A stretch of DNA of 64,000 bases, from NCBI RefSeq assembly GCF_025561425.1, contig NZ_CP094824.1:2294001-2358000 (forward strand). The letters run 5' to 3'. Under the pieces are notes generated by a model that saw only the letters and a list, made by a program, of their open reading frames with translations, ran no database searches and was not told the DNA's origin. This stretch comes from Mammaliicoccus sciuri (lineage in GTDB: Bacteria; Bacillota; Bacilli; Staphylococcales; Staphylococcaceae). Below are positions 2,835 to 47,138 of the stretch, piece after piece; position 1 is the stretch's first letter, and each line of letters begins with the position of its first letter. The position numbers were made by a program, and so were the translations under genes.

Positions 2835-4046
2835 GTGGTTTTTATCGAATATTTTGGAATAGATGTTGGAAAAGGAAAGAGTTTTATTGCACATTATTCA
2901 AACAATGAATTTGTTAAAGAATTTGAAATTACCCATGATAATAATGGTTTTGATTCACTAAAGAAATATATAAAGAATTTCTCAGGAGTATATTTCTTGT
3001 TTGAAGCTACTGGTATATATTCAAAAGTATTGGAGAAATTTTGTACCGTTAATAAGATTTCGTTTTGTGTAATTAACCCTCTAGAGGCAAAATTACTAAC
3101 TAATTCTTTAAGAAACTGGAAAACAGATAAATCTGATGCACATAAACTTGCTGTTTTAGCTAAAAATATAAACAAAAAACCTTCTAGAAATTTATTGGAA
3201 GAAAAGTATGTAAAAATTAGAGAGCTGACAAGATACTATGAAGAAATTAACAATCAACAAAATTACTTAAAAAACCAATTGATTCAGTTACTAGATATGA
3301 CTTTTCCAGAATTACAAAACCTATTTAAGGACAGATATTCAAAATTGGCTTTACAAGTAGCTAGTAAGTTCCCACATCCGGACTTTGTTGATTCTAATGA
3401 TATAGAAGAACTAAAAAAGATAATTAATAGTTGTACAGAAAAAAATCTATCAGAGAAAAAGAAAGCACAATATGCAAATAAACTCGTAGAGTTCTCTATG
3501 GTCAGTTATCCTTCTGTTTCTAAAGATTCATTTTTAACAGATAAATTAGTTTATGTGATTGAAGATTTATTAAGCCTAATGAAACGGCATGCTTCTATAA
3601 AACAAAGATTATTAATGTTAGCTGAAGAATTTGAAGAATTTAAAATAATTAAATCTATTCCTGGCATTGGTGATTTAACTGCCATAATGATTATTGGCGA
3701 ATTAGGTGATATCAAATCCTTTGATTCTCATAAGCAATTGAATGCATATGTAGGTATTGATATAAAAAGATATCAGTCTGGTAAAACGCATTTTAAAGAT
3801 AAAATAAACAAACGTGGAAACAAACATGCTAGATCATTATTTTACTTAATCATTAAAAATTTTCTGTTGGGTCAAAGGTTATTTAAAAATCATATTATCG
3901 ACTATTATTACAAATTAAAAAAGCAGCCTAATGGCAAAGGCCACAAGACTGCATCAGTAGCTTGCATTAACAAACTACTTAAAACCATTCATTATCTCGT
4001 AATAAATAATAAAGAATATGATTATCACTTGTCTCCACACGGATAA
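2835..4046 (+). CDS. IS110-family DEDD transposase
   Basis: A recombinase of about 400 residues. The N-terminal DEDD/RuvC-like domain opens with YFGIDVGKGKSFIAHY and includes FLFEATGIYS and TDKSDAHKLAVLA. A coiled region follows, then the C-terminal transposase_20 domain with IKSIPGIGDLTAIMIIGELGD, NAYVGIDIKRYQSGK and KRGNKHARSLFY. The GTG taken as start abuts the AGGAG ribosome site at 2831-2835, which is too close. Initiation a few codons later at a non-standard codon is possible, and the arrangement is the same in both copies. The other copy differs by one residue, with leucine for the proline in SIPGIG. Confidence 0.9.
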   Translation: MVFIEYFGIDVGKGKSFIAHYSNNEFVKEFEITHDNNGFDSLKKYIKNFSGVYFLFEATGIYSKVLEKFCTVNKISFCVINPLEAKLLTNSLRNWKTDKSDAHKLAVLAKNINKKPSRNLLEEKYVKIRELTRYYEEINNQQNYLKNQLIQLLDMTFPELQNLFKDRYSKLALQVASKFPHPDFVDSNDIEELKKIINSCTEKNLSEKKKAQYANKLVEFSMVSYPSVSKDSFLTDKLVYVIEDLLSLMKRHASIKQRLLMLAEEFEEFKIIKSIPGIGDLTAIMIIGELGDIKSFDSHKQLNAYVGIDIKRYQSGKTHFKDKINKRGNKHARSLFYLIIKNFLLGQRLFKNHIIDYYYKLKKQPNGKGHKTASVACINKLLKTIHYLVINNKEYDYHLSPHG

Positions 4047-35549: not shown

Positions 35550-36188
35550 CTATTGTTCATTATCAGAAGATTCTAAAGTATGTTTATTAGATGTGTTATT
35601 CACCGTAGAAATACTCGAACTATTAATTTCCCACTTTGCTTGAATCGTCTCAATGTTTGGGATAAAGTTCATTTCCAAAGTATATTTATCATTATCAGGT
35701 ACATCGTATACGATATACCCAGAGCCTGTATTGTCTTTATTTAGTTGATGTGAGAAACCAACTGCCATATCACTATTACCAAACCATTCTTGATAGTTTT
35801 CTCCATTAACTTTCATACTAAAAGCATCATTTTGAATTAATACTTGTTCCTCATTATTATTCTTAAATTTGAAATAAACTTTCAAAGCTTTACCATTATT
35901 CGGTGGAAAATCTAGATCATTATTAGGCTTTACAAATTCAGCTTTAACCAATGTTATTTCTACTCCATCATTCTTAACCGTATCACCTAATTCATAAATC
36001 TTGTTCGAAATTAGTTTACTCGCTTTATGCAATTCTTCTTTTTCATCAATCTCATCATCTATAGCAATGATTAAAAAAATTATAATCACACCAACAATTG
36101 TGAGTGCAGTGATAACTACACCTAAACAACCTAAAAGTGCGTATAGCCAACCATTTCCTCGCTCATTCTTTTGATTTCCCTTATCCAT
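35550..36188 (-). CDS. DUF4352 membrane-anchored protein
   Basis: A 212-residue protein with a short cytosolic N-terminus (DKGNQKNERGNGW), one membrane helix (LYALLGCLGVVITALTIVGV, then IIIFLIIAI) and an outer DUF4352 domain (about 65-195: LGDTVKNDGVEITLVKAEFV and GYIVYDVPDNDKYTLEMNF). It is the third paralogue in the window, with the genes at 4640 and 9956. It lacks their stalk or coiled-coil tail. Function is unknown. A GGAGCA ribosome site precedes the ATG. Confidence 0.75.
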   Translation of the reverse strand: MDKGNQKNERGNGWLYALLGCLGVVITALTIVGVIIIFLIIAIDDEIDEKEELHKASKLISNKIYELGDTVKNDGVEITLVKAEFVKPNNDLDFPPNNGKALKVYFKFKNNNEEQVLIQNDAFSMKVNGENYQEWFGNSDMAVGFSHQLNKDNTGSGYIVYDVPDNDKYTLEMNFIPNIETIQAKWEINSSSISTVNNTSNKHTLESSDNEQ

Positions 36189-36347
36189 TCCACATTGCTC
36201 CTTTAACCTATATCCAATCTATAATACCTATTTTTTACAATTTTAATAGCACTAAATTGTATTTTCAAGATTTACTATTCATTATTATTAAAAACATTAA
36301 AATTCATTTATAGTCAGTAAATCCCCTATTAAATTTTTTCATAAAAA

Positions 36348-36380
36348 AACAATCAATATCACACGATGATATTAGTTGTT
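36348..36380 (-). terminator. terminator of the zinc-ribbon membrane protein gene
   Basis: aacaatcaatatca pairs with tgatattagttgtt with a 2-base internal loop, followed on the reverse strand by seven Ts. The rest of 36189-36466 shows nothing else. Confidence 0.7.
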
Positions 36381-36466
36381 TCGAAACGACTTTCTTATTA
36401 CAGTTATTAGAATTTTAAAATTGCTCAAATAGAATATTGTAGATTATAAATATAAGTTTAGTATCA

Positions 36467-36745
36467 CTATTTTTTATCAGGTTTAAAATGTAGTTCACAT
36501 GATTTGCAATAGAGAGAATAGCCAAACTTGATATTTAAGAATAAAAAGAATATCGGTATAAGAATAATTAATACTGTAGGAATTATCATACCAATTGGAT
36601 TAGTTTTATACATACCAGATGTTATTCCACCAAAAATTAGTAGTATAGCTAACGCTACACCGATTCCTACTAAACAACCTAAGCAACTATTTGATTGTTC
36701 TACAACAGCTCCTGAATTACATCTTGGACAACGACGCCATACCAT
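36467..36745 (-). CDS. small protein with zinc ribbon split by a membrane hairpin
   Basis: A 92-residue protein. The N-terminal CPRC knuckle (VWRRCPRCNSG) and C-terminal CKSC knuckle (YSLYCKSCELHFKPDKK) together make one four-cysteine zinc ribbon. Between them lie two membrane helices (CLGCLVGIGVALAILLIFGG and IIPTVLIILIPIFFLFLNI). The topology places both knuckles on the same, probably cytosolic, side. No named family was recognised. AGGAGTG lies just before the start. Confidence 0.65.
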   Translation of the reverse strand: MVWRRCPRCNSGAVVEQSNSCLGCLVGIGVALAILLIFGGITSGMYKTNPIGMIIPTVLIILIPIFFLFLNIKFGYSLYCKSCELHFKPDKK

Positions 36746-36894
36746 ATTTCATCACTCCTAATTCATATAATAAAATTATTAGACTTTACTTTCATAATAC
36801 AACAAATTAATAAAATTTGGTACACTTCATTTTTGATAAAGGGTCAAATTCTATTTATTCTTCAACATCTTATCCTGTCATTTGAAATAGACAA

Positions 36895-37045
36895 CATAAA
36901 TGAAATATGTTAATTTATATATAGAAAAGGGTGACACACATATTGTGTATCACCCAAATGAGCCCGTTAAAAAGACGGTGACCTTGTATAATTGCTTAAA
37001 TAGCCATCAAACTCGACCAAAGTTAGTGATGGTTATTTTTTTGGT
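36895..37045 (+). ncRNA. antisense antitoxin RNA of holin-like toxin locus 2
   Basis: Homologous to the RNA at 35295-35454, sharing the order of all elements. A perfect hairpin gggtgacacaca/tgtgtatcaccc at 36929-36955 is followed by agcccgttaaaaagacggtg and a terminator at 36999-37037 with a T-run. The upstream TTGAAA and a TATGTT -10 are weaker than in locus 1. It overlaps the 3' end of the intact toxin frame. Confidence 0.6.
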
Positions 37046-37109
37046 TTTCTTTAATCATGACTAAAGCAATGACAGTAAAGACTATCATTAAAATCTCATA
37101 GTCCGACAT
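37023..37109 (-). CDS. holin-like type I toxin (28 residues, intact copy)
   Basis: The peptide MSDYEILMIVFTVIALVMIK, then ENQKNNHH, is a single membrane helix with a polar tail. It fits the putative holin-like toxin family (Hol_Tox, with SprG/TxpA-type peptides). AAAGGAAT lies 5 bases before the ATG. The 3' end is overlapped by the antisense RNA terminator. Such toxins insert in the membrane when the antisense RNA is lost. Family membership is by pattern and locus layout; a divergent member is likely. Confidence 0.6.
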   Translation of the reverse strand: MSDYEILMIVFTVIALVMIKENQKNNHH

Positions 37110-37322
37110 GTTATTCCTTTCTAGGAGTAACAACTATAACCATAGGCATCACCCCTTTATAAGAGATTAGCCACCATCTATCTAACTTGCTCACTTTTTT
37201 ATTTTATAAAATTAGCATAATATTGCCTATAAATAAATGCTGCATTTAGCTGTAATTTAAGCACCTAATCAACTTGATTTTCAAATACAGTTATTGCCTT
37301 TAAAGAGTTCCAACTAATCAAA

Positions 37323-37606
37323 CATACTAAGATTAGTAGCGAAGTAATCTACGACGGTAGATGAGCTTCGCTACTTTTTTATATTCTTTATCTTACCGTT
37401 GGTAGTTATTTTAAGAATATGAAATAGTAGAAGAGAGAAGTACTCCGAATAGATTTTAGGGTCAAAGAATCCGTAATAAAAACTGGAGAACTTCACTCTC
37501 CTTATGAATTCGATTTTAGTATGTTGGGTCCACTGAGATCGTGTACAGGAAAATGAACTAAGTAAGGTTCAGTGAAGTTAAAACTTCTTAAATTAGAAGA
37601 TTAGGA
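37323..37606 (+). ncRNA. candidate bridge RNA region in IS110 left end (copy B)
   Basis: Same stem-loops as in copy A (2551-2834). It differs only by a double substitution at about 37533-37534 within the segment gttgggtcc.ctgagatcg. Confidence 0.45.
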
Positions 37607-38818
37607 GTGGTTTTTATCGAATATTTTGGAATAGATGTTGGAAAAGGAAAGAGTTTTATTGCACATTATTCAAACAATGAATTTGTTAAAGAATTTGAAA
37701 TTACCCATGATAATAATGGTTTTGATTCACTAAAGAAATATATAAAGAATTTCTCAGGAGTATATTTCTTGTTTGAAGCTACTGGTATATATTCAAAAGT
37801 ATTGGAGAAATTTTGTACCGTTAATAAGATTTCGTTTTGTGTAATTAACCCTCTAGAGGCAAAATTACTAACTAATTCTTTAAGAAACTGGAAAACAGAT
37901 AAATCTGATGCACATAAACTTGCTGTTTTAGCTAAAAATATAAACAAAAAACCTTCTAGAAATTTATTGGAAGAAAAGTATGTAAAAATTAGAGAGCTGA
38001 CAAGATACTATGAAGAAATTAACAATCAACAAAATTACTTAAAAAACCAATTGATTCAGTTACTAGATATGACTTTTCCAGAATTACAAAACCTATTTAA
38101 GGACAGATATTCAAAATTGGCTTTACAAGTAGCTAGTAAGTTCCCACATCCGGACTTTGTTGATTCTAATGATATAGAAGAACTAAAAAAGATAATTAAT
38201 AGTTGTACAGAAAAAAATCTATCAGAGAAAAAGAAAGCACAATATGCAAATAAACTCGTAGAGTTCTCTATGGTCAGTTATCCTTCTGTTTCTAAAGATT
38301 CATTTTTAACAGATAAATTAGTTTATGTGATTGAAGATTTATTAAGCCTAATGAAACGGCATGCTTCTATAAAACAAAGATTATTAATGTTAGCTGAAGA
38401 ATTTGAAGAATTTAAAATAATTAAATCTATTCTTGGCATTGGTGATTTAACTGCCATAATGATTATTGGCGAATTAGGTGATATCAAATCCTTTGATTCT
38501 CATAAGCAATTGAATGCATATGTAGGTATTGATATAAAAAGATATCAGTCTGGTAAAACGCATTTTAAAGATAAAATAAACAAACGTGGAAACAAACATG
38601 CTAGATCATTATTTTACTTAATCATTAAAAATTTTCTGTTGGGTCAAAGGTTATTTAAAAATCATATTATCGACTATTATTACAAATTAAAAAAGCAGCC
38701 TAATGGCAAAGGCCACAAGACTGCATCAGTAGCTTGCATTAACAAACTACTTAAAACCATTCATTATCTCGTAATAAATAATAAAGAATATGATTATCAC
38801 TTGTCTCCACACGGATAA
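37607..38818 (+). CDS. IS110-family DEDD transposase (copy B)
   Basis: 403 codons, identical to the copy at 2835 except that leucine replaces proline in the helix-hairpin-helix-like segment IKSILGIGDLTAIM. That proline is part of the conserved PGIG motif of the C-terminal transposase_20 domain. This copy may therefore be weakened, leaving copy A as the better candidate source of activity. The start codon problem (GTG abutting AGGAG) is the same. Confidence 0.9.
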   Translation: MVFIEYFGIDVGKGKSFIAHYSNNEFVKEFEITHDNNGFDSLKKYIKNFSGVYFLFEATGIYSKVLEKFCTVNKISFCVINPLEAKLLTNSLRNWKTDKSDAHKLAVLAKNINKKPSRNLLEEKYVKIRELTRYYEEINNQQNYLKNQLIQLLDMTFPELQNLFKDRYSKLALQVASKFPHPDFVDSNDIEELKKIINSCTEKNLSEKKKAQYANKLVEFSMVSYPSVSKDSFLTDKLVYVIEDLLSLMKRHASIKQRLLMLAEEFEEFKIIKSILGIGDLTAIMIIGELGDIKSFDSHKQLNAYVGIDIKRYQSGKTHFKDKINKRGNKHARSLFYLIIKNFLLGQRLFKNHIIDYYYKLKKQPNGKGHKTASVACINKLLKTIHYLVINNKEYDYHLSPHG

Positions 38819-38967
38819 TATATTCATCTAAATCATAACATATTGAAAAAATTATTAAATAATAAAGGCTTATTTAGTGATGCCAATTTTAAATATTTTT
38901 TACTACGTAGTAGTTGACAAATCGTAGGAAATTAGCTAGGACTTTTTATTAAACGTACAAATTCAAT

Positions 38968-39393
38968 TTATTCTTCTACACCATCTTCATCATATTTAGT
39001 GACAATGCCATCTTCATCTACTATATATGAACCAGCTAGTTCACCGTCTTTAGTATAAAATGCAAATCCCCAACTTCCGTCATCTCTCTTTTCAGGTTCT
39101 CTATACGTATAAGTATCCGTATCTAATATACTTCCTTCATAGTCTTCTACTATGTCCATTACATTACTACGTGTGACAGTATCATATTCATCGTCAGTAT
39201 CTTCATCATCTGAATCTTCATCTGATATATGATTTTCAATATTATCTATCGCATATTGTGCTTCTTCTTGTGTATATTGATCACCCTCATCAGAAGTTAA
39301 TTGATCAAATAACTCTTTGTCAGACATAGGCATAAATTCTTGGTAATTTTCAGCACTTTTTGTGCACTCAAAAACAAAAAAGCCCACAACCAC
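38968..39393 (-). pseudogene. Ltp-family (host-cell surface-exposed) lipoprotein, C-terminal fragment
   Basis: The frame opens without a credible start and at once reads TKSAENYQEFMPMSDKELFD, QLTSDEGDQYTQEEAQYAID, the helical Ltp repeat found in superinfection-exclusion lipoproteins. An acidic linker and a C-terminal domain ending DGIVTKYDEDGVEE follow. The signal peptide and earlier repeats are missing. The loss point is next to the presumed att site at 39413, so integration or recombination there probably removed the 5' part. Its terminator is split by IS110 copy B. Confidence 0.65.
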
Positions 39394-39412
39394 AAGGGTT
39401 ATAGGCTATATA

Positions 39413-39424
39413 ATGGAGACGGCG
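39413..39424 (-). other. presumed prophage att core (3' end of tmRNA)
   Basis: On the reverse strand CGCCGTCTCCAT equals the last bases of the tmRNA acceptor/T-arm region, after which a GGGC hairpin with six Ts follows (about 39375-39408). The rest of tmRNA is absent here, as expected for the short att copy left on one side of an element integrated into ssrA. Phage genes begin to the right and host or older-element sequence lies to the left. Confidence 0.6.
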
Positions 39425-39629
39425 TCCTTTTATAGATTATGTAAATAGTAGTAAAACGTTGTAATTATAAGGTTTATAGACGTTTAACTTTATAACTATA
39501 TATCATTATTTATAACTAAATTGACACGTATTTGACACTTGCACAAATAAAAAAGAGGCAACCGTCGCAACAGTTAACCTCATATCTATATAACCTCTTC
39601 CGCCTAATTAAATTATATCATAAAAAAAG

Positions 39630-39655
39630 CCCACCAATTAAGGTGGGTTTAGTTG
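39630..39655 (-). terminator. cassette-end hairpin behind the Fic gene
   Basis: cccaccaattaaggtggg followed by tttagttg. The same string ends the cassettes at 41408-41433 and 42673-42697. The stop codon of the Fic gene lies inside it. Confidence 0.75.
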
Positions 39656-40770
39656 TTTATGATTCTTAATAATTCATAATTATTATAATTTTTGTTTCTT
39701 TGTTTACTCTTTTCTTCATATACTAAATCATTTTCGGCTAGTTTTTTCAATGCTTTTCTTACAGTAGGTTGAGTAAATCCAGTTATCTTACTAGCTTTAG
39801 CAACTGTGATTTTTGGTTCTTGGAATGTTATAAACCAAATCTTTTTTTCTGAATCTGTCTTTAGCATTCTAATACCTTTAAAATATAACTCTTCAGACTT
39901 AGATATTTTCATCAAAATACTATCTATCATTCTTTCTGAAGCATTTAAAAAGAACATAATCCAACCTTCCCAGTCAGGTGTCTTTGTTCTAACTCCATTT
40001 AATAAGTCGTAATACCTAGATTTTTCTTTTTCCAATTCTTCACTTACAAAAAATACTGGCTTATCAATAACATTAGCACTTACAAGTGTTAATATAATTA
40101 AAATCCTACCTAACCTTCCATTCCCATCTAAGAATGGGTGAATAGATTCAAATTGCGCATGAGTAATAGCTGTTCTAATTAAGGGATCAGTATAGTAATT
40201 AAAGTAATGTCCTCCTTCTTTTTCTTTTAAACTGCTATGTTCTATTCCATTTATAAAATATTCTAAATTAGTCATATATTCACCAATCATATTAGCATCA
40301 ATTGGTACATAAGTTGCATTTTCAATTTTATTATCAGGTCCTATAAAATTCTGGATTTTTCTGAAATTCCCTGGATTTTTTTCCTTTCCTCTAGTACCAC
40401 TTAACAGTATATTATGAAGTTCTTTAATCAACTTTTCAGATATAGGTGTATTATTAACTTTAATCTCATTATATCCATAGGATAAAGCATTCATATAATT
40501 CAATACTTCCGTAACTTCATTACTTTGCTTTTTATCCATTTTCTCTTCTAGAACTTCATCAAAAGTAACTTGAGTACCTTCTATTTTAGTTGATTCTAGT
40601 GATTCTCTCATACTCATAATATTTATAAAGTTATCGTTAATAATCGAATGTTGTAATTCACTATTTAATTTACCAACTTTTATGTTCACTTCTGCTAATT
40701 TTTTATATATTTTCAAAGCTATGTCACTTGTTATATTTACCGGTAATTTAGGTACACCTTTTAACGTCAA
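39649..40770 (-). CDS. Fic-family protein AMPylase with N-terminal inhibitory helix and C-terminal wHTH
   Basis: A cytosolic Fic enzyme of about 373 residues that transfers AMP (or another nucleotide part) to target proteins. The Fic_N segment holds the inhibitory motif ESTKIEGTQ (S-x3-E-G, class II). The catalytic loop is IHPFLDGNGRLGR (about residue 215). A winged-helix domain follows (ASKITGFTQPTVRKALKKLA). The TTG at 40770 is preferred to the GTG at 40779 because AAGGAG is 8 bases from the TTG and abuts the GTG. It is the leftmost cassette of the prophage accessory region. A defence or toxin role is inferred from its place. Confidence 0.85.
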   Translation of the reverse strand: MTLKGVPKLPVNITSDIALKIYKKLAEVNIKVGKLNSELQHSIINDNFINIMSMRESLESTKIEGTQVTFDEVLEEKMDKKQSNEVTEVLNYMNALSYGYNEIKVNNTPISEKLIKELHNILLSGTRGKEKNPGNFRKIQNFIGPDNKIENATYVPIDANMIGEYMTNLEYFINGIEHSSLKEKEGGHYFNYYTDPLIRTAITHAQFESIHPFLDGNGRLGRILIILTLVSANVIDKPVFFVSEELEKEKSRYYDLLNGVRTKTPDWEGWIMFFLNASERMIDSILMKISKSEELYFKGIRMLKTDSEKKIWFITFQEPKITVAKASKITGFTQPTVRKALKKLAENDLVYEEKSKQRNKNYNNYELLRIINN

Positions 40771-41037
40771 AATACTCACTCCTTTTTCTTTAATATAATT
40801 ATAACACTGATTAAAGAAAAATAAAGTCTTTTTGTTTCGTTAACCAAATTTATTTTGTACTTATTCATTTTAATCATATCTATACAAAAACCACTCTAGT
40901 CAAATGAAGGGTTCTTCTAGAGTGGTAAAACAAATTAGAGTTGATTGTACAAGGAAAGACAAAATGGGTGTTAAGCTATTCCTTGTATAATTAAATTACC
41001 AAATTATTCTAAATATGGCAATAAAAACTAAAAAATA
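40771..41037. other. Fic gene upstream region with a perfect hairpin
   Basis: A 10-bp perfect stem accactctag with ctagagtggt at 40890-40926. No protein-coding frame was seen. The promoter of the Fic gene must lie here, but no clear boxes were found. Confidence 0.5.
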
Positions 41038-41432
41038 CCCCATCACACAAAGTGACAGGGCAAGTTAATGGTTATTTATATATGAAAATCCAGCACAATA
41101 TAAGTGCTTAAATATGATAATACTACACTTTAGATATTAAATCAAATAATAACACCCCACTTATTAGTGAGGTGCAAAAAGGTTTTACCAAATATGAGTT
41201 TAAAACTAAAACGGAGGTAATAGGTTTAAACTGTTTTTAGTATATCATTTTGTGGAACCAATTCAAAATAATAACCTACTCAATTATATGAGTAGGCTCG
41301 CCGTCATATTGTGTTTAATATGTCTGTTTAAATGGTACCATATATGTTGGCATAAGTAAAAAAAAACCTACCTAGTTTCCGCTAGATAGGGTTTAATTCT
41401 GAAATAACCCACCAATTAAGGTGGGTTTAGTT
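41038..41432. repeat. 395-bp non-coding direct repeat R1, hairpin-rich
   Basis: Near-identical to R2 at 42303-42697, with about ten differences by eye, all in the first 120 bases. It contains hairpins ccccatcac/gtgacaggg (41038), caccccact/agtgaggtg, cctactc/gagtagg (41276), acctacctag/ctagataggt (41366) and cccacc/ggtggg (41408). A stem-loop agtttaaaac/gtttaaact at 41197-41232 has the loop segment cggaggta. No coding frame was found. It forms the 3' flank of the two-gene cassette at 41434-42211. Confidence 0.92.
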
Positions 41433-41433
41433 G

Positions 41434-41805
41434 TTAATATAAACCAAATACTTTGCCAGCCACGCCTAAAATAGCAATCAATGTTCCGATAAACCACTTC
41501 ATTTGCGTATTCTTCATTTCAGAAATTTGGAATTTTATTTTGTCTTCTATTCTTTCAGGTAGTTCATCTAATTTATTGTTTAAATTATCAAATTTGTCAT
41601 CAATTCTTTTTTCAAATTGTTCAAATTCTTTTCGACTAATAAATTCACTCACATCAATCACCTCGTTTGAACTTATATTACCTATACTATGTTTTTGGAA
41701 ATCTAATCCACTAGCTTTTGGTAATTTATCCAAATTTTTTGTAATTCTTTCATCCCTATTTTCAAGTTTAAATTTTTCAGGTCTACTAACTTTTTCATTC
41801 GTCAT
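41434..41805 (-). CDS. coiled-coil protein with C-terminal membrane helix, cassette gene 2
   Basis: A 123-residue protein. A basic N-terminal region (EKVSRPEKFKLENRDERITK) precedes a coiled coil (ISRKEFEQFEKRIDDKFDNL, NNKLDELPERIEDKI) and one C-terminal membrane helix (WFIGTLIAILGVAGKVFGLY). The coiled-coil/TM part resembles XhlA-type hemolysin-like phage proteins and the chromosomal remnant at 25423. It starts 1 base after the stop of the partner gene at 41807, so the two are translationally coupled. The role is unknown; a membrane effector of a two-gene system is an inference. Confidence 0.7.
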   Translation of the reverse strand: MTNEKVSRPEKFKLENRDERITKNLDKLPKASGLDFQKHSIGNISSNEVIDVSEFISRKEFEQFEKRIDDKFDNLNNKLDELPERIEDKIKFQISEMKNTQMKWFIGTLIAILGVAGKVFGLY

Positions 41806-41806
41806 A

Positions 41807-42211
41807 CTAATGTTTCCCTTTCATGACATTAAAGTATGCTTTAGACGTGTTGTTTTCGATAGTTAACTTAATTGAATGAATTCCTTCTTTTTCAAACCTT
41901 AAATTATTGAAACGTGCATTAGTTTCGAAGACATTTAAAAATTCTTTATCTCCATTTTCTTCATCCATCTTAACTCTATCAATATTCACATTTGTATTGA
42001 ACATTATTTTATCATCTGGATCAATTAATTCAAATTGTAAGGTGTATATTTTTAATTCTTCTATACCTATTATCCCAAAAGACACATCAAAAGAATAGTT
42101 ATTTGGTAAAACTTCTAAATTTAAATATGACATAGGACTATCAATTACTAAATTACCATTTGGATTATTAAACACTTCTAAAGATGGAACTACCCATGCT
42201 ACTTTTGCCAT
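41807..42211 (-). CDS. small beta-sandwich protein, cassette gene 1
   Basis: A 134-residue soluble protein without a signal peptide: AKVAWVVPSLEVFNNPNGNL, then YSFDVSFGIIGIEELKIYTL and a last strand region GIHSIKLTIENNTSKAYFNV. Alternating hydrophobics suggest an all-beta, immunoglobulin-like fold, somewhat like DUF6941-type proteins, though the family is not certain. GGGGTAT precedes the ATG. It is first in a two-gene unit with the coiled-coil/TM gene and flanked on both sides by the 395-bp repeats. Confidence 0.65.
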   Translation of the reverse strand: MAKVAWVVPSLEVFNNPNGNLVIDSPMSYLNLEVLPNNYSFDVSFGIIGIEELKIYTLQFELIDPDDKIMFNTNVNIDRVKMDEENGDKEFLNVFETNARFNNLRFEKEGIHSIKLTIENNTSKAYFNVMKGKH

Positions 42212-42302
42212 TTAAATACCCCTTTTTTAGTCTAATTAAATATATATTACACTAAAATTTAATTGGACTAAAGATAGAACATATAAGCGAACATAAAAAC
42301 AA

Positions 42303-42697
42303 CCCCATCACACAAAGTGACAGGGTAAGTTAATGGTTATTTATATATGAAAATCCAGCACAATGTAAGTGCTTGAATATGATAATATTACACTTTTAGG
42401 ATTAAATCAAATAATAACACCCCACTTATTAGTGAGGTGCAAAAAGGTTTTACCAAATATGAGTTTAAAACTAAAACGGAGGTAATAGGTTTAAACTGTT
42501 TTTAGTATATCATTTTGTGGAACCAATTCAAAATAATAACCTACTCAATTATATGAGTAGGCTCGCCGTCATATTGTGTTTAATATGTCTGTTTAAATGG
42601 TACCATATATGTTGGCATAAGTAAAAAAAAACCTACCTAGTTTCCGCTAGATAGGGTTTAATTCTGAAATAACCCACCAATTAAGGTGGGTTTAGTT
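42303..42697. repeat. 395-bp non-coding direct repeat R2, hairpin-rich
   Basis: Second copy of R1, 1265 bases further on. The last approximately 270 bases are identical. It has the same ordered hairpins and the stem-loop at 42462-42497. It separates the two-gene cassette from the Kiwa-like genes. The end of R2 (gtgggtttagtta) runs into the stop codon of the membrane protein gene at 42696. Confidence 0.92.
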
Positions 42698-43220
42698 ATT
42701 TGACTATAAAGTATCTAGAAGAAGCTATTTGTAATACTTCTTTATCATCATAATCTTCAATTAAATTACATTTACTAATAAATATCTTATTTTTATCATT
42801 TGAATATATATTATACCCCATCAAAACTAATAACAGATTATAGTGTAGCATATCACTTTTTGTATGAAATATACCTATGATAATAAAAATAAGGAAATTT
42901 ATAAAAATACTGTAAATATTTGAAAAATCCAAAGACAACAATGGTATTAAGTAAGTAACAAAATAATTTAATATATCTGTATTAATAATTTTTAGTTCCC
43001 CCGGATTCTCATCTGAAGCTTGTGCATTTTTGATCCATTTACATATAAGAAATATAACGCTAACCAAACTAACTAAAAATAATATAATCCAATAGATTTT
43101 AAATTCAAAAATTACATAAGTAATACTTTTTTGATTATCCTCAGCTTTTCTAATTTCATTTAAAAAAATTAATAAAAATAAAGGTATATAGTTACAAATA
43201 TAAATAAAGATATTCAGCAT
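42696..43220 (-). CDS. kwaA: KwaA-like membrane protein (Kiwa anti-phage system)
   Basis: A 174-residue protein with four membrane helices: IFIYICNYIPLFLLIFL, YWIILFLVSLVSVIFLI, the TYLIPLLSLDFSNIYSIF region, and FLIFIIIGIFHTKSDM/HYNLLLVLMG. A short cytosolic C-terminal domain follows (KNKIFISKCNLIEDYDDKEV). Size, the four-helix plan and the YLIPLLSL-type third helix fit KwaA, the membrane sensor of Kiwa. It begins 9 bases after the KwaB-like gene. The order (B then A) is the reverse of the original Escherichia locus. GTAGGTGTGAG precedes the ATG. Confidence 0.6.
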   Translation of the reverse strand: MLNIFIYICNYIPLFLLIFLNEIRKAEDNQKSITYVIFEFKIYWIILFLVSLVSVIFLICKWIKNAQASDENPGELKIINTDILNYFVTYLIPLLSLDFSNIYSIFINFLIFIIIGIFHTKSDMLHYNLLLVLMGYNIYSNDKNKIFISKCNLIEDYDDKEVLQIASSRYFIVK

Positions 43221-43229
43221 ATCTCACAC

Positions 43230-44150
43230 CTACCTATTCGGATCTTCTCCTATGTCATCTCCAATTATTGTTTTATAGTAAGAATCCTGCATTAAATTCA
43301 CTAAAACATTTAGTTGGCTAATATCTTCATAGTCTATCTCAAATTGTTCGATAGATTCATTATATATAATTGGTAAATTAAATTGTTCTATAGCTAATTT
43401 TGTTTTTTCGATACATTCAATAAATAAAGTTGCTCTATCATTATCTTCGCTTAGTTTAGCGATTCTTCTAACAAATCTACCGTTGTTTAGTAATTTATGT
43501 TTTACAGTATCAAAATTTTTTACTTTTCCTGTTTTATCTATTCTGCTTAAAATAGTATTAGCTTTTTCTTTAAATTCTTCGTTCAAATAAAAGATTCTTT
43601 CCAAAGCAATATGATTGTCAATATATATCAAACCATTATATATTAATAAATCAATTTCATAATCCATTTTCAAAAATTTATCAAGCTCTATTGTGTCATA
43701 AATACCTTCTGGGTCAAATTTTGCAAAAATACTTCTTTTTAAACTTTTATTATTAAAATTTCTTCTGAATATATAAAGCCTTTCGTCATTCAGTTTATAT
43801 TCAAACATATAAAACTTTATATTTTTAGATTGAATATTATTTGAAGTATCTATATCAGTTAATTTTGACAGTATTTCTTCATATCCAAAAGTATCATCTG
43901 TTTTAATTGTTTCAACCACATCGTTTTTACTAATTATAGGATTGTATTCCTGAATATCTTGTTCTAACATTTTCTCCGAATTTATTTGATGATTATACGT
44001 TAATTCTTCAATTAACTTTTTACCTTTATGATTATCTTTTATAGATAATTTCAAAAGGTAATATTTGTCATCACTTTTTTCTCTTTTTTCTCCACAATAA
44101 ACTTTTAATGTACCATTTTGAATAATATCAGAAATTTTATTCCCACTCAT
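43230..44150 (-). CDS. kwaB: KwaB-like DUF4868 protein (Kiwa anti-phage system)
   Basis: A 306-residue soluble protein. The core reads RLYIFRRNFNNKSLKRSIFA, then KMDYEIDLLIYNGLIYIDNH and ALERIFYLNEEFKEKANTIL. This is the DUF4868 pattern of a charged beta strand, a conserved 'iyI..n...fE+iF' segment and a helical C-terminus. KwaB binds DNA and, with membrane-embedded KwaA, blocks phage replication and late transcription. The ATG at 44150 is chosen over 44201 because AAAGAGGTAAGGGG precedes it and the length fits KwaB. A TATAAT at 44189-44184 may be its -10 box. Confidence 0.65.
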   Translation of the reverse strand: MSGNKISDIIQNGTLKVYCGEKREKSDDKYYLLKLSIKDNHKGKKLIEELTYNHQINSEKMLEQDIQEYNPIISKNDVVETIKTDDTFGYEEILSKLTDIDTSNNIQSKNIKFYMFEYKLNDERLYIFRRNFNNKSLKRSIFAKFDPEGIYDTIELDKFLKMDYEIDLLIYNGLIYIDNHIALERIFYLNEEFKEKANTILSRIDKTGKVKNFDTVKHKLLNNGRFVRRIAKLSEDNDRATLFIECIEKTKLAIEQFNLPIIYNESIEQFEIDYEDISQLNVLVNLMQDSYYKTIIGDDIGEDPNR

Positions 44151-44201
44151 TCCCCTTACCTCTTTCAGTGTGTATTTAACAATATTATACATTTTACACA
44201 A

Positions 44202-44943
44202 TAAAGTAGAAAGAGTTTATTTATAAAAAGCGCAACTAACATCGGGGAAGACATTAGTTGCTAATACACATTTGTATTATACCACATATTAAGAGTTCAT
44301 ACTATTAGTAGATACTAATTTTAGTCAAAAAATAACCCCATCACTAGTATGATAGGGCAAATAACAGAGTTATTTAATATGAGTTGTTAATCAACTACCG
44401 GAGATAGGTAACAATTAACAACTATATTCTAGCATATTTTTCACTTTATGTAAAACCATTAAATAAAAATACCCCCACTTAATAATGTGAGGGTGTACAC
44501 AATATAAATAAAATGAATTCTAGATATAAAATATATCTAGCCAAAATATATCAGATTTAACATTAATTTACAAATTTAAACCCTAGCCTTTTTCCGTAAG
44601 CTAGGGTGTAGTAATAGAACGATTTATTATGGGATATTTAGAATATCCACTTTTATTATATACAATAAATGTAAAAAAGCAACCCTACACAAAAAGTATA
44701 GGGCTAAAATACCAAAAATAGATAAATTTACTTTGGAAGAGTTTCACTAAAAATAATATATCACTAATTGTGTATTTTACCAATAAAAAATAACCCTACC
44801 TAGTTTCCGCTAGATAGGGTTTAATACAATTTGATTTGTAGCTAAATAAGCTACTGAATAAAATATATCATTTAAATAATGAGTCTACAACAAAAATCCC
44901 CTATATTAATACAAGGAATAATAATGATTGTGTGATTATAATA
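44202..44943. other. hairpin-rich non-coding spacer between Kiwa-like genes and amidase
   Basis: No coding frame is supported. It contains successive hairpins: gcaactaa/ttagttgc at 44232-44261, ccccatcac region at 44336-44357, agttgttaat/attaacaact at 44382-44423 with a loop including cggagata, cccccac/gtgaggg near 44472, tagatata/tatatcta near 44521, aaccctagc/gctagggt at 44579, ggatat/atatcc near 44632, accctac/gtatagggc at 44684, and accctacctag/ctagatagggt at 44794. It is a diverged relative of R1 and R2. Confidence 0.8.
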
Positions 44944-45813
44944 CTACTTTTTACTTGTAATCTTCAAGTCAAACCATAATTTTGTTTCTTTTTCTAACTT
45001 CTCATCTTTGTGTGTAATAGGTCCTAATGCACAATAGAAACGGCCGGCCTTAGGATTAGTCGGATATTCAAACTCTGCCCACCAGTAGCCATCCTTTTTA
45101 GTTACTGAGAAGAAGTTGATATATTGACCAGCCAAAATATTATTTGACGATGGTAATGCTGGTTCGTTTAAACCAGGTTTCTTCTTAGCTGCGATTGGTG
45201 ATACACCTTTCTTAGCTGTTGCTTTACCAGACCATTTCCAAGTTGTTTTAGGTGGTTTAGGCGTTGTGCCACCGTTGTAATAATGTTTAATACGAGAAAT
45301 AAAGTAATCTTTTAACTTATTACGATTGGCTAACGTATCTGGTGCGTTTTTTCCGACATGCATATCCCAAGAACGATGAGGACAAGATGTACCGAAATAC
45401 TGTCTGTGTAAGTTTACAGTCGCCCGGTTTGGATACAAACCATAAGACTTCATAACGGCTGCTGCCACTTTGAATGTTGCCTCTTCATTTAATTTGAACT
45501 GGGCATCTGTTAAACCTGCTGCTGGATGTGATTGACAAACTTCGAATCCGATCAGATTACTGTTAGCCCAGTTATTCCCACAATGCCATTCTACATAATC
45601 TGTTGGGTGATACCAAAGTGTTTCATCTTTGTTTACATACACTGAAGCCCACCCATTAACATGCGTTCCGTTTTGTTCTCTCGTGTATAACCATGGTAAA
45701 TACTGATTAGGTGTCATTGAACCATAATCATTGTGAATAACAATACCTGCTATACTTGCTTTTTTACCTGTTATTTTACTGCCTTGAATGTGTTTTGAAT
45801 AAATATCTTTCAT
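44944..45813 (-). CDS. phage N-acetylmuramoyl-L-alanine amidase (endolysin)
   Basis: A 289-residue lysin. The Amidase_2 domain (about 1-170) holds the zinc ligands in IVIHNDYG, NLHRQYFGTSCPHR and supporting residues in EWHCGNNWANSNLIGFEVCQ. A linker and a C-terminal SH3b wall-binding domain follow (PALPSSNNILAGQYINFFSV, GYWWAEFEYPTNPKAGRFYC). It cuts the amide between muramic acid and the peptide stem at the end of the lytic cycle. It lies 85 bases after the holin gene. GGAGAG precedes the ATG. Confidence 0.92.
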   Translation of the reverse strand: MKDIYSKHIQGSKITGKKASIAGIVIHNDYGSMTPNQYLPWLYTREQNGTHVNGWASVYVNKDETLWYHPTDYVEWHCGNNWANSNLIGFEVCQSHPAAGLTDAQFKLNEEATFKVAAAVMKSYGLYPNRATVNLHRQYFGTSCPHRSWDMHVGKNAPDTLANRNKLKDYFISRIKHYYNGGTTPKPPKTTWKWSGKATAKKGVSPIAAKKKPGLNEPALPSSNNILAGQYINFFSVTKKDGYWWAEFEYPTNPKAGRFYCALGPITHKDEKLEKETKLWFDLKITSKK

Positions 45814-45898
45814 TATAAATCTCTCCTTTAGTTTTTTCTTGGCTATAACTGCACTGTCATAACCAAGGCATCATAAAAAGCCGACTATTTAGCCGACT

Positions 45899-46147
45899 TT
45901 ACTTTGGTTCGTTATATTGTTGTGCTTGTTCACTGTCTTTTATTCCTTTAGTAGTTGGGTCTTGTACCACACCTAGTAATACCAACACACCTAACACACT
46001 GTTAACGATATTCGTTATTTGGTCTGTATACACTGTGATGTCGTAATCGAATGCACCCGACACTTGTTGCACAAATAAAAGGATAGCCGATAATATGGCT
46101 ACCCAAAATGATTTTTGTTTAATACGTACTTTCCAATTAATTTTCAT
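45899..46147 (-). CDS. phage holin, phi-LC3-type
   Basis: An 82-residue membrane protein: INWKVRIKQKSFWVAILSAI, LLFVQQVSGAFDY, then ITNIVNSVLGVLVLLGVVQD and PTTKGIKDSEQA. The phage_holin phi LC3 family has exactly this order (basic start, helix, loop, helix, DPTT motif). It opens the membrane so that the amidase can reach the wall. GGGGGAAG precedes the ATG. A hairpin aaagtcggc/gccgac after the stop (about 45875-45900) may end or attenuate transcription. Confidence 0.92.
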   Translation of the reverse strand: MKINWKVRIKQKSFWVAILSAILLFVQQVSGAFDYDITVYTDQITNIVNSVLGVLVLLGVVQDPTTKGIKDSEQAQQYNEPK

Positions 46148-46162
46148 GTTACTTCCCCCTTA

Positions 46163-46222
46163 TTATTTACATTTCCCAAACCAAAAGCACTCCCAAAAAC
46201 TTACGCCCAATAATTTAAGCAT
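46163..46222 (-). CDS. 19-residue phage peptide
   Basis: A very short frame between the holin and the XhlA-like gene: MLKLLGVSFWECFWFGKCK. It has an outstanding AAGGAGGTGAAAC ribosome site, and its position in tail/lysis regions of related phages suggests an XkdX-like mini-protein. Function is unknown. Confidence 0.5.
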   Translation of the reverse strand: MLKLLGVSFWECFWFGKCK

Positions 46223-46235
46223 CTGTTTCACCTCC

Positions 46236-46547
46236 TTATATACCAAATAACATTTTGATTGATGTAATGATGAGTGAGCCTGCTATTGTACCTACTAAGC
46301 CTAGAACCCACAATTTGATGTCTCTTATATTTTTATTATTTTCTTTTTTATTCTCTTTCTCTATTTCACGCTCTCTATTTAAGGCATCTAATGTGAAATC
46401 TAATTTTTGATTCACAAGTTCTTGCGCGTGTTGCCCCTTTTTGATTTCATCTAAAGAAGAAAATATTTTTTCATCATTGTCCTCGAGCCGTTTAATTCTT
46501 CTGTCATAATCAGCTCTTTGGAACTCATTACTCATGGGATCACTCAC
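46236..46547 (-). CDS. XhlA/DUF2951-like phage protein (coiled coil plus TM)
   Basis: A 103-residue protein. The N-terminal coiled coil (NEFQRADYDRRIKRLEDNDE, KLDFTLDALNREREIEKENK) is followed by a C-terminal membrane helix (IKLWVLGLVGTIAGSLIITS). Such proteins sit just upstream of holins in staphylococcal and Bacillus phages and help lysis or membrane association. Its plan is shared with the proteins at 41434 and 25423. Start MSNEF or MSDPM; AGTGAG precedes it. Confidence 0.8.
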   Translation of the reverse strand: MSDPMSNEFQRADYDRRIKRLEDNDEKIFSSLDEIKKGQHAQELVNQKLDFTLDALNREREIEKENKKENNKNIRDIKLWVLGLVGTIAGSLIITSIKMLFGI

Positions 46548-46584
46548 TTTCTGTTAATTTATCTGTAATAAAAAGGCATTGAAC

Positions 46585-46926
46585 CTAATCAATACCTTGG
46601 TTTTGTGCACTTAATTCTGAATTACTTTCTTGAATATCTTCTTCTGTACTTGTGGATGGTTCAACATAGTCTGTTCCATCAGGATTATGTTTAGAACGCT
46701 CAATTTGTTCAGCTACATAATACGTTTTAATGTTAGTGCCAAATAACTCAGCTAACATATTTTGTGCTTTACATGCAGTTTTGGCATCTTCTTCTGACTT
46801 AAACTTATGCGCTGATTGAGGTGTAGCACCACGATTAAATCCACTACCATAATTTTTCACTAAACATGTTTCCTTACCTGTTTCATCTCTTTCTACTAAA
46901 AAATACTGTGTAATTGTCATTTCCAT
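46585..46926 (-). CDS. phage hypothetical protein
   Basis: A 113-residue soluble protein. TITQYFLVERDETGKETCLV starts a beta-rich part with FKSEEDAKTACKAQNMLAEL. A disordered acidic tail ends SELSAQNQGID. Small proteins of this type lie between tail fibre and holin genes in staphylococcal phages; the role is unknown. AAAGGAGTG precedes the ATG. Confidence 0.7.
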   Translation of the reverse strand: MEMTITQYFLVERDETGKETCLVKNYGSGFNRGATPQSAHKFKSEEDAKTACKAQNMLAELFGTNIKTYYVAEQIERSKHNPDGTDYVEPSTSTEEDIQESNSELSAQNQGID

Positions 46927-46957
46927 TTAAAACACTCCTTTAAATTTTTTATATAAA

Positions 46958-46986
46958 AAACACCTTACTCGTTTTGAGTAGGTGCT
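46958..46986 (-). terminator. terminator behind the 57-residue phage gene
   Basis: gcacctactc pairs with gagtaaggtg (one mismatch), and six Ts follow on the reverse strand. The stem overlaps the last codons of the gene. Confidence 0.7.
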
Positions 46987-47138
46987 TTATTATCAGCTTG
47001 TTGTTGTTCATTTTGTTGTTCATTTTGTTCTTGCAATATTGCTTTTAAAATTGCATTCTCATGCGTAAGTCTTGAATTTTCCTGCACTAGATTGCTTATA
47101 ACAATTTGTGGGTTTGCTTGTATGCTTTGTTCATTCAT
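46965..47138 (-). CDS. 57-residue phage coiled-coil protein
   Basis: It starts with ATGA overlapping the stop of the tail protein gene and reads MNEQSIQANPQIVISNLVQE, NSRLTHENAILKAILQEQNE, then a Gln/Asn-rich tail. The heptad pattern suggests a coiled coil. Small proteins of this shape follow the tail-fibre gene in many staphylococcal siphoviruses. Coupled translation is implied by the 4-base overlap. Confidence 0.75.
   Translation of the reverse strand: MNEQSIQANPQIVISNLVQENSRLTHENAILKAILQEQNEQQNEQQQADNKAPTQNE

Follow-up and report, generated by a model that had tools for sequence, protein, structure and literature searches.

In the Kiwa anti-phage system, as a review describes it (PMC12904381), inner-membrane KwaA tetramers bound by KwaB dimers move to the site of injection, and KwaB binds DNA and halts replication and late transcription without cutting. 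Another study, unlike that review, gives DNA degradation as the action of Kiwa in its listing and places it under narrow activity (PMC12322248). For Streptococcus thermophilus, the published account reports that Kiwa lowers plaquing of the lactococcal phages sk1 and c2 by 5 and 4 logs, respectively, and that of streptococcal phages by about 1 log only (PMC11514479). In S. aureus prophages, the anti-phage gene pdpSau is described as invariably located downstream of the gene for the amidase (PMC10127798).

The stretch analysed here, which we call the window, comprises 64,000 nucleotides of Mammaliicoccus sciuri (contig NZ_CP094824.1, positions 2,294,001 to 2,358,000). An earlier note on this DNA had picked out a DUF4868-pattern protein followed, after 9 bases, by a four-helix membrane protein, and both open reading frames are confirmed on the minus strand:

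43230..44150, minus strand: kwaB, encoding 306 aa; by homology the DNA-binding effector subunit (PADLOC, Pfam, fold)
42696..43220, minus strand: kwaA, encoding 174 aa; by homology the membrane sensor subunit, with four helices (PADLOC, profile, fold)

By sequence and predicted fold the pair is Kiwa, an example of the known system and not a new one. What had been flagged as a candidate is settled as genuine Kiwa, and its gene order is no longer an oddity.

Identity of the pair and order of its genes

The kwaB frame begins with an ATG at 44150 and its stop ends at 43230; kwaA follows on the same strand after the 9-base gap. The outer coordinate of 44201 in the earlier note belongs to a TTG form of the kwaB frame that begins within the leader. 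Judged by sequence comparison, the ATG is the better start, because the leader of phage phi879, which precedes a different KwaB, is 89.5% identical to that of the window over 239 nt, with the last 126 bases, including the kwaB ATG, being identical, and the two sequences diverge immediately beyond.

Both proteins are matched near full length by PADLOC models, KwaB by PDLC00224 (1e-59, residues 6–306) and KwaA by PDLC00214 (1.1e-34, residues 2–171), with E-values well past chance. KwaB also passes the cut-off of the Pfam family PF16162 (KwaB/DUF4868; 69.6 bits, cut-off 26.3), which bears out the DUF4868 assignment, and KwaA has no significant model in the Pfam scan. The NCBIfam equivalogs NF041622 and NF041623 are not reached (63.3 of 100 bits for KwaA and 19.8 of 200 bits for KwaB); by sequence score, the pair is outside these narrow equivalog sets. 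The description of the proteins as highly diverged holds with respect to the NCBIfam equivalog set and the solved structures, but other PADLOC Kiwa models match near full length.

When single sequences were compared with the PDB using phmmer, KwaB retrieved no KwaB with an E-value of 1 or below, and KwaA retrieved solved KwaA at E 0.081 only. Family profiles from alignments of 21 sequences, for KwaB and for KwaA, reached solved KwaB at 3.1e-8 (profile positions 6–291) and solved KwaA at 6.6e-17 (profile positions 5–141). The same families are recovered with AlphaFold models made from these alignments (mean pLDDT 79.5 and pTM 0.76 for KwaB; 84.3 and 0.72 for KwaA). In Foldseek searches of the PDB, all six matches of the KwaB model with E up to 0.001 are KwaB, with TM-scores of 0.56–0.60, and for the KwaA model the top six matches are all chains of KwaA, E being no higher than 0.001 in four. 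The KwaA model shows four long helices, with a small beta part at the C terminus, in keeping with the four-helix membrane protein of KwaA plan read earlier from the letters. PADLOC, Pfam, profiles and folds agree on the Kiwa assignment. The HMM and structure searches that the earlier note had proposed for KwaB and KwaA gave matches, and the outcome it had named as speaking against Kiwa, no match, did not appear.

The earlier note had further taken the order kwaB-kwaA as exceptional, the reverse of the described locus. PF16162 was searched in 1, 8, 108, 398 and 398 genomes (own genome, genus, family, class and phylum, respectively, in overlapping sets), and in every one of these searches the 14 control genomes were without a match. 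This gave 21 distinct KwaB loci that pass the Pfam cut-off, with that of the window counted, and at all 21 a KwaA-family gene adjoins KwaB, as judged with a KwaA profile that was itself grown from KwaB neighbours; the failure of the two genes to co-occur in other genomes, named beforehand as an outcome against Kiwa, is not what we see. Round one of this profile, grown from two seeds, found 18 of the final 19 proteins; two of these 18 (L001, L002) are the seeds themselves or proteins identical to them. At locus L030 the KwaB match corresponds to a short open frame, and the profiles found its KwaA only. Four sub-cut-off KwaB matches (L003, L007, L033, L034) are excluded from the 21; the neighbour profile search found no KwaA beside L003, L033 and L034, and L007 has no adjoining same-strand ORF of at least 90 aa.

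The order is kwaB-kwaA in 17 of the 21 loci (16 of 20 if that of the window is set aside) and kwaA-kwaB in four (L016, L029, L031, L032); for Emticicia, the annotation gives the kwaA-kwaB order. A second set of 29 loci (10 genome loci and 19 viral-contig loci), collected via alignment A3, has KwaA downstream of kwaB in 26 and upstream in none, with no KwaA seen at the other three (L047, L060, L068). These 29 loci are not independent, as KwaB exceeds 250 aa in 26, corresponding to 21 distinct proteins; the others are L040 and L067, with a short KwaB, and L068, for which no KwaB was called. In addition, the experimentally active S. thermophilus Kiwa is listed as (kwaB, kwaA) in the table of PMC11514479, a listing that we interpret as gene order. 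Because the two locus sets and the listed S. thermophilus system agree, the kwaB-kwaA order of the window is ordinary for its relatives, and reversed order as a novelty is ruled out.

Other searches added nothing to these sets. Query P0001 found no relative among 18 candidate stretches of genome contigs and, in viral contigs, three stretches with one weak locus (L009), the ORF of which we judged not to be KwaB. Query P0002 found a relative in none of 35 stretches of viral contigs.

The prophage and other carriers of the pair

The genome is a single contig of 2.92 Mb, and the pair lies at one end of a prophage of ~44 kb that has a tail gene, integrase, repressor, Erf and terminase. Its position beside endolysin and holin fits the claim that it is carried in the accessory end of a prophage. 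On the minus strand the order is tail genes, holin, endolysin, Kiwa, a pair of DUF6941 and phrog_7090 genes, a SoFic-like Fic gene and the attachment site. The features that frame the pair are as follows:

45899..46147, minus strand: holin (phrog_962, 1e-29)
44944..45813, minus strand: endolysin beside the slot (phrog_833, 1.8e-67)
44786..44825, minus strand: repeat D2, 40 nt, a terminator-like element that separates the endolysin gene from Kiwa
44151..44359, minus strand: leader of the Kiwa unit, with two terminator-like stems and, by eye, a TATAAT box and GAGGTAAGGGG, a ribosome-site-like stretch
39413..39424, no strand assigned: probable left attachment core, a perfect 12-base match to the 3' end of ssrA, which lies at the right end

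At the right end of the prophage, beyond the window, the integrase adjoins ssrA (L011:264-1313). Beside the left core, at 39412, this prophage begins to be homologous to a second one carried by the genome. The core at 39413–39424 and ssrA are therefore the probable ends of the prophage, ~44 kb apart, the left end being placed by the 12-base match. The record of phage phi6228 includes ssrA (L008:1-2260), and a further stretch of it (L008:45498-47862) matches DUF-free chromosome-side sequence past ssrA in the M. sciuri genome; the record therefore probably includes host DNA.

Several observations concern the surroundings. Just outside the probable attachment site, 38968–39393 encodes an Ltp lipoprotein domain protein that matches superinfection-exclusion families (phrog_4980, 1.4e-14). 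Two ORFs, 2835–4046 and 37607–38818, are of equal length (403 aa), and the latter is an IS110-family transposase. The sole Rfam match at gathering score in 36000–47000 is rli28, a Listeria sRNA (37039–37218, 111.8 bits), left of the probable prophage end and outside the pair; at E up to 1, eight sub-threshold Rfam matches fall within 40800–44950, none of which we accept as real. Eight ORFs from the early region of the prophage were without a PADLOC match (E up to 0.001).

Outside this genome, tblastn with KwaB found four phage records, namely phi6228, phi6223, phi6229 and Clostridioides phage CD1801 (29%), and two plasmid records, from Lacticaseibacillus paracasei and Paenibacillus crassostreae. 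In CD1801 and both plasmids the next downstream gene aligns with KwaA, and relatives of the pair are also present on genome contigs. The closest phage records are those of the M. sciuri phages phi6228, phi6223 and phi6229, each of which matches a query of 25 kb over 87% of its length at 98.6%. They share the kwaB-kwaA order of the window, with KwaB 97.6–99.7% identical over the aligned part and KwaA 100%, and their pair genes are annotated as hypothetical. The source of the phi6223 record is the induction of a prophage, and the source field of phi6228 is empty.

A different Kiwa allele or branch is found in Staphylococcus phage phi879 (KY389064), where gp51-gp52 match PADLOC Kiwa models at 1.3e-115 and 3.1e-57. 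These genes occupy the same slot in the same order behind the same leader, but KwaB and KwaA are only 19% and 26% identical to those of the window. They are annotated as DUF4868 and hypothetical transmembrane proteins, and neither "DUF4868" nor "gp51" occurs in the main text of the phi879 paper (PMC5390265), which reports a temperate phage with virions and transduction. The Kiwa pair of phi879 is open. With our identification, phi6228, phi6223, phi6229 and phi879 join the phages known to carry Kiwa genes, under annotations of hypothetical, DUF4868 or predicted transmembrane protein. A literature search for Mammaliicoccus together with Kiwa, of partial coverage, matched work on urinary infections only.

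Probable role of the pair in the lysogen

Very likely, the pair is a Kiwa that a temperate siphophage integrated at ssrA carries among its accessory (moron) genes, and that would protect the lysogen. A probable promoter directly upstream of kwaB, read by eye, together with terminator-like stems flanking the unit, would allow transcription in the lysogen. By homology, KwaA would form a membrane tetramer that senses phage attachment or injection and holds KwaB dimers, and the dimers would bind incoming DNA and block replication and late expression, so that the lysogen and its prophage might survive a competing phage. The promoter scan of 44299–44150 listed no promoter-like pair, and across 39300–45000 such pairs are not enriched (35 found versus 42.7 expected). 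Terminator-like sites in the same region number 22, against a shuffle mean of 1.3.

Could the pair instead be Kiwa by descent that no longer protects, a decaying module in a prophage? This is improbable, even though related copies are damaged. In the second prophage of the same genome (G000:C1 2519626-2520244; L069:5626-6244), kwaA is intact and its protein identical to that of the window, while only the last 27 of 306 KwaB residues are retained; the KwaB model accordingly matches the genome once, at the window copy. Compared with the window, this prophage is short of 1,236 bases here, and the junction shows a one-base match. In the phi6223 record a frameshift lies near the start of kwaB and kwaA is intact, and the KwaB tblastn match in phi6229 spans the same residues as that in phi6223. 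The window KwaB itself deviates at three near-invariant columns, carrying Ile73, Asn133 and Ser140 in place of the Gly, Lys and Gly, respectively, that are seen in 19 of 21 aligned sequences. Against decay, both window ORFs are open, as is the kwaB of phi6228, which is only four substitutions away across leader and pair. The 126 bases shared with the leader of phi879 also argue against decay. The frameshift in phi6223, moreover, could be a homopolymer sequencing error. One genome with an intact and a kwaB-less copy provides a natural comparison.

Slightly less probable still is that the pair acts on the life cycle of the carrier phage, through superinfection exclusion of close relatives or the timing of induction, and not in broad defence. 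The pair adjoins the lysis module on the late-gene strand, and the second prophage, 98.8% identical to the window over 7,035 aligned columns in the tail-lysis stretch, is the type of competitor that exclusion would concern. However, the pair has its own leader and terminator-like stems, and its relatives also occur on two plasmids and on genome contigs. As for a DUF4868 protein and an unrelated membrane protein paired by chance, the sole point in favour is the missing Pfam model of the second protein, and this idea is refuted by the PADLOC matches of both proteins, together with the profile, fold and conserved adjacency of KwaA. Protection of the lysogen by a phage-encoded Kiwa is the preferred reading of the pair.

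Cassettes behind the endolysin and comparison with described systems

Between the pair and the attachment site lie two more cassettes, and repeats are found at the ends of all three:

42667..42703, minus strand: repeat D3 at the end of kwaA, stop codon and terminator-like stem
41402..41438, minus strand: repeat D3 at the end of the second cassette, a sequence repeat
39624..39660, minus strand: repeat D3 at the end of the fic gene, a sequence repeat
42294..42710, minus strand: 417-nt direct repeat, copy after kwaA, 96.6% identical to 41029–41443
41029..41443, minus strand: other copy of the 417-nt direct repeat, following the second cassette, 96.6% identical to 42294–42710
41807..42211, minus strand: first gene of the second cassette, DUF6941/phrog_5881 (PF22091 32.2 bits, cut-off 27; phrog_5881 1.5e-33)
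41434..41805, minus strand: second gene of the second cassette (phrog_7090, 2.2e-19)
39649..40779, minus strand: third cassette, SoFic-like Fic protein (PADLOC SoFic 5e-99; phrog_5978 7.5e-134)

By eye, the phrog_7090 protein has a coiled coil and a C-terminal hydrophobic stretch. PADLOC gave no match for the second cassette (41434–42211); with DUF6941 followed by phrog_7090 in a defence-type slot, we note it as a candidate. The Fic protein misses the cut-off of the NCBIfam SoFic model by far (137 of 550 bits).

D3 is a 37-nt repeat that overlaps the stop codon and terminates each of the three cassettes. In related genomes its copies also stand beside other genes, or beside none; since D3 occurs beyond defence cassettes, the idea that it marks cassette boundaries is weakened. 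The 417-nt direct repeat flanks the DUF6941 and phrog_7090 cassette, and phi6228 has a single copy. The cassette, present in the window, is missing from phi6228 (whole record) and from phi6223 (the stretch compared). The second prophage is without the Fic cassette, and its single D3 is a hybrid of two window copies, as a crossover between two D3 copies would leave. In this second prophage, the ORF at the endolysin position encodes a different protein of 459 aa.

The contents of the slot differ between phages. In phi575, staphylokinase occupies the slot equivalent to that of the window Kiwa, and in S. aureus prophages the equivalent position is taken by PdpSau (PMC10127798). In phi31 the same slot (L013:2313-2915) holds an annotated metallo-protease that matches the PADLOC capP (4e-21) and RmrA models. 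Within 39300–45000 several terminator-like stems have promoter-like boxes in between, and this stretch may include small RNA genes.

It is possible, and we propose it tentatively, that Mammaliicoccus siphophages exchange defence cassettes at the slot that follows the endolysin. Short homologies in the shared leader and the terminator repeats would then let recombination swap, stack and lose cassettes; Kiwa alleles would alternate behind a fixed leader, and KwaB would be lost first while KwaA is kept, this last step being based on a single deletion and a single record in which kwaB has a frameshift at a homopolymer. The row of cassettes with a common terminator repeat and leader provides a concrete, testable case of phages trading defence genes.

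Among described systems, the solved Kiwa structures (PDB 9mrg, 9mrr, 9mrx, 9mtn and 9nyu) are matched by both folds and both profiles of the window proteins, with identities in structural alignments of 14–16% for KwaB and 19–21% for KwaA. The Kiwa of S. thermophilus 90730, likened here by its published description (PMC11514479), resembles the window pair in having two genes in the same listed order in a Gram-positive host, but it is chromosomal and belongs to a CRISPR3-linked defence island. PdpSau, also compared by description (PMC10127798), is like the window Kiwa in being a prophage accessory anti-phage gene downstream of an amidase gene, but differs in being a single membrane-anchored protein that acts through abortive infection.
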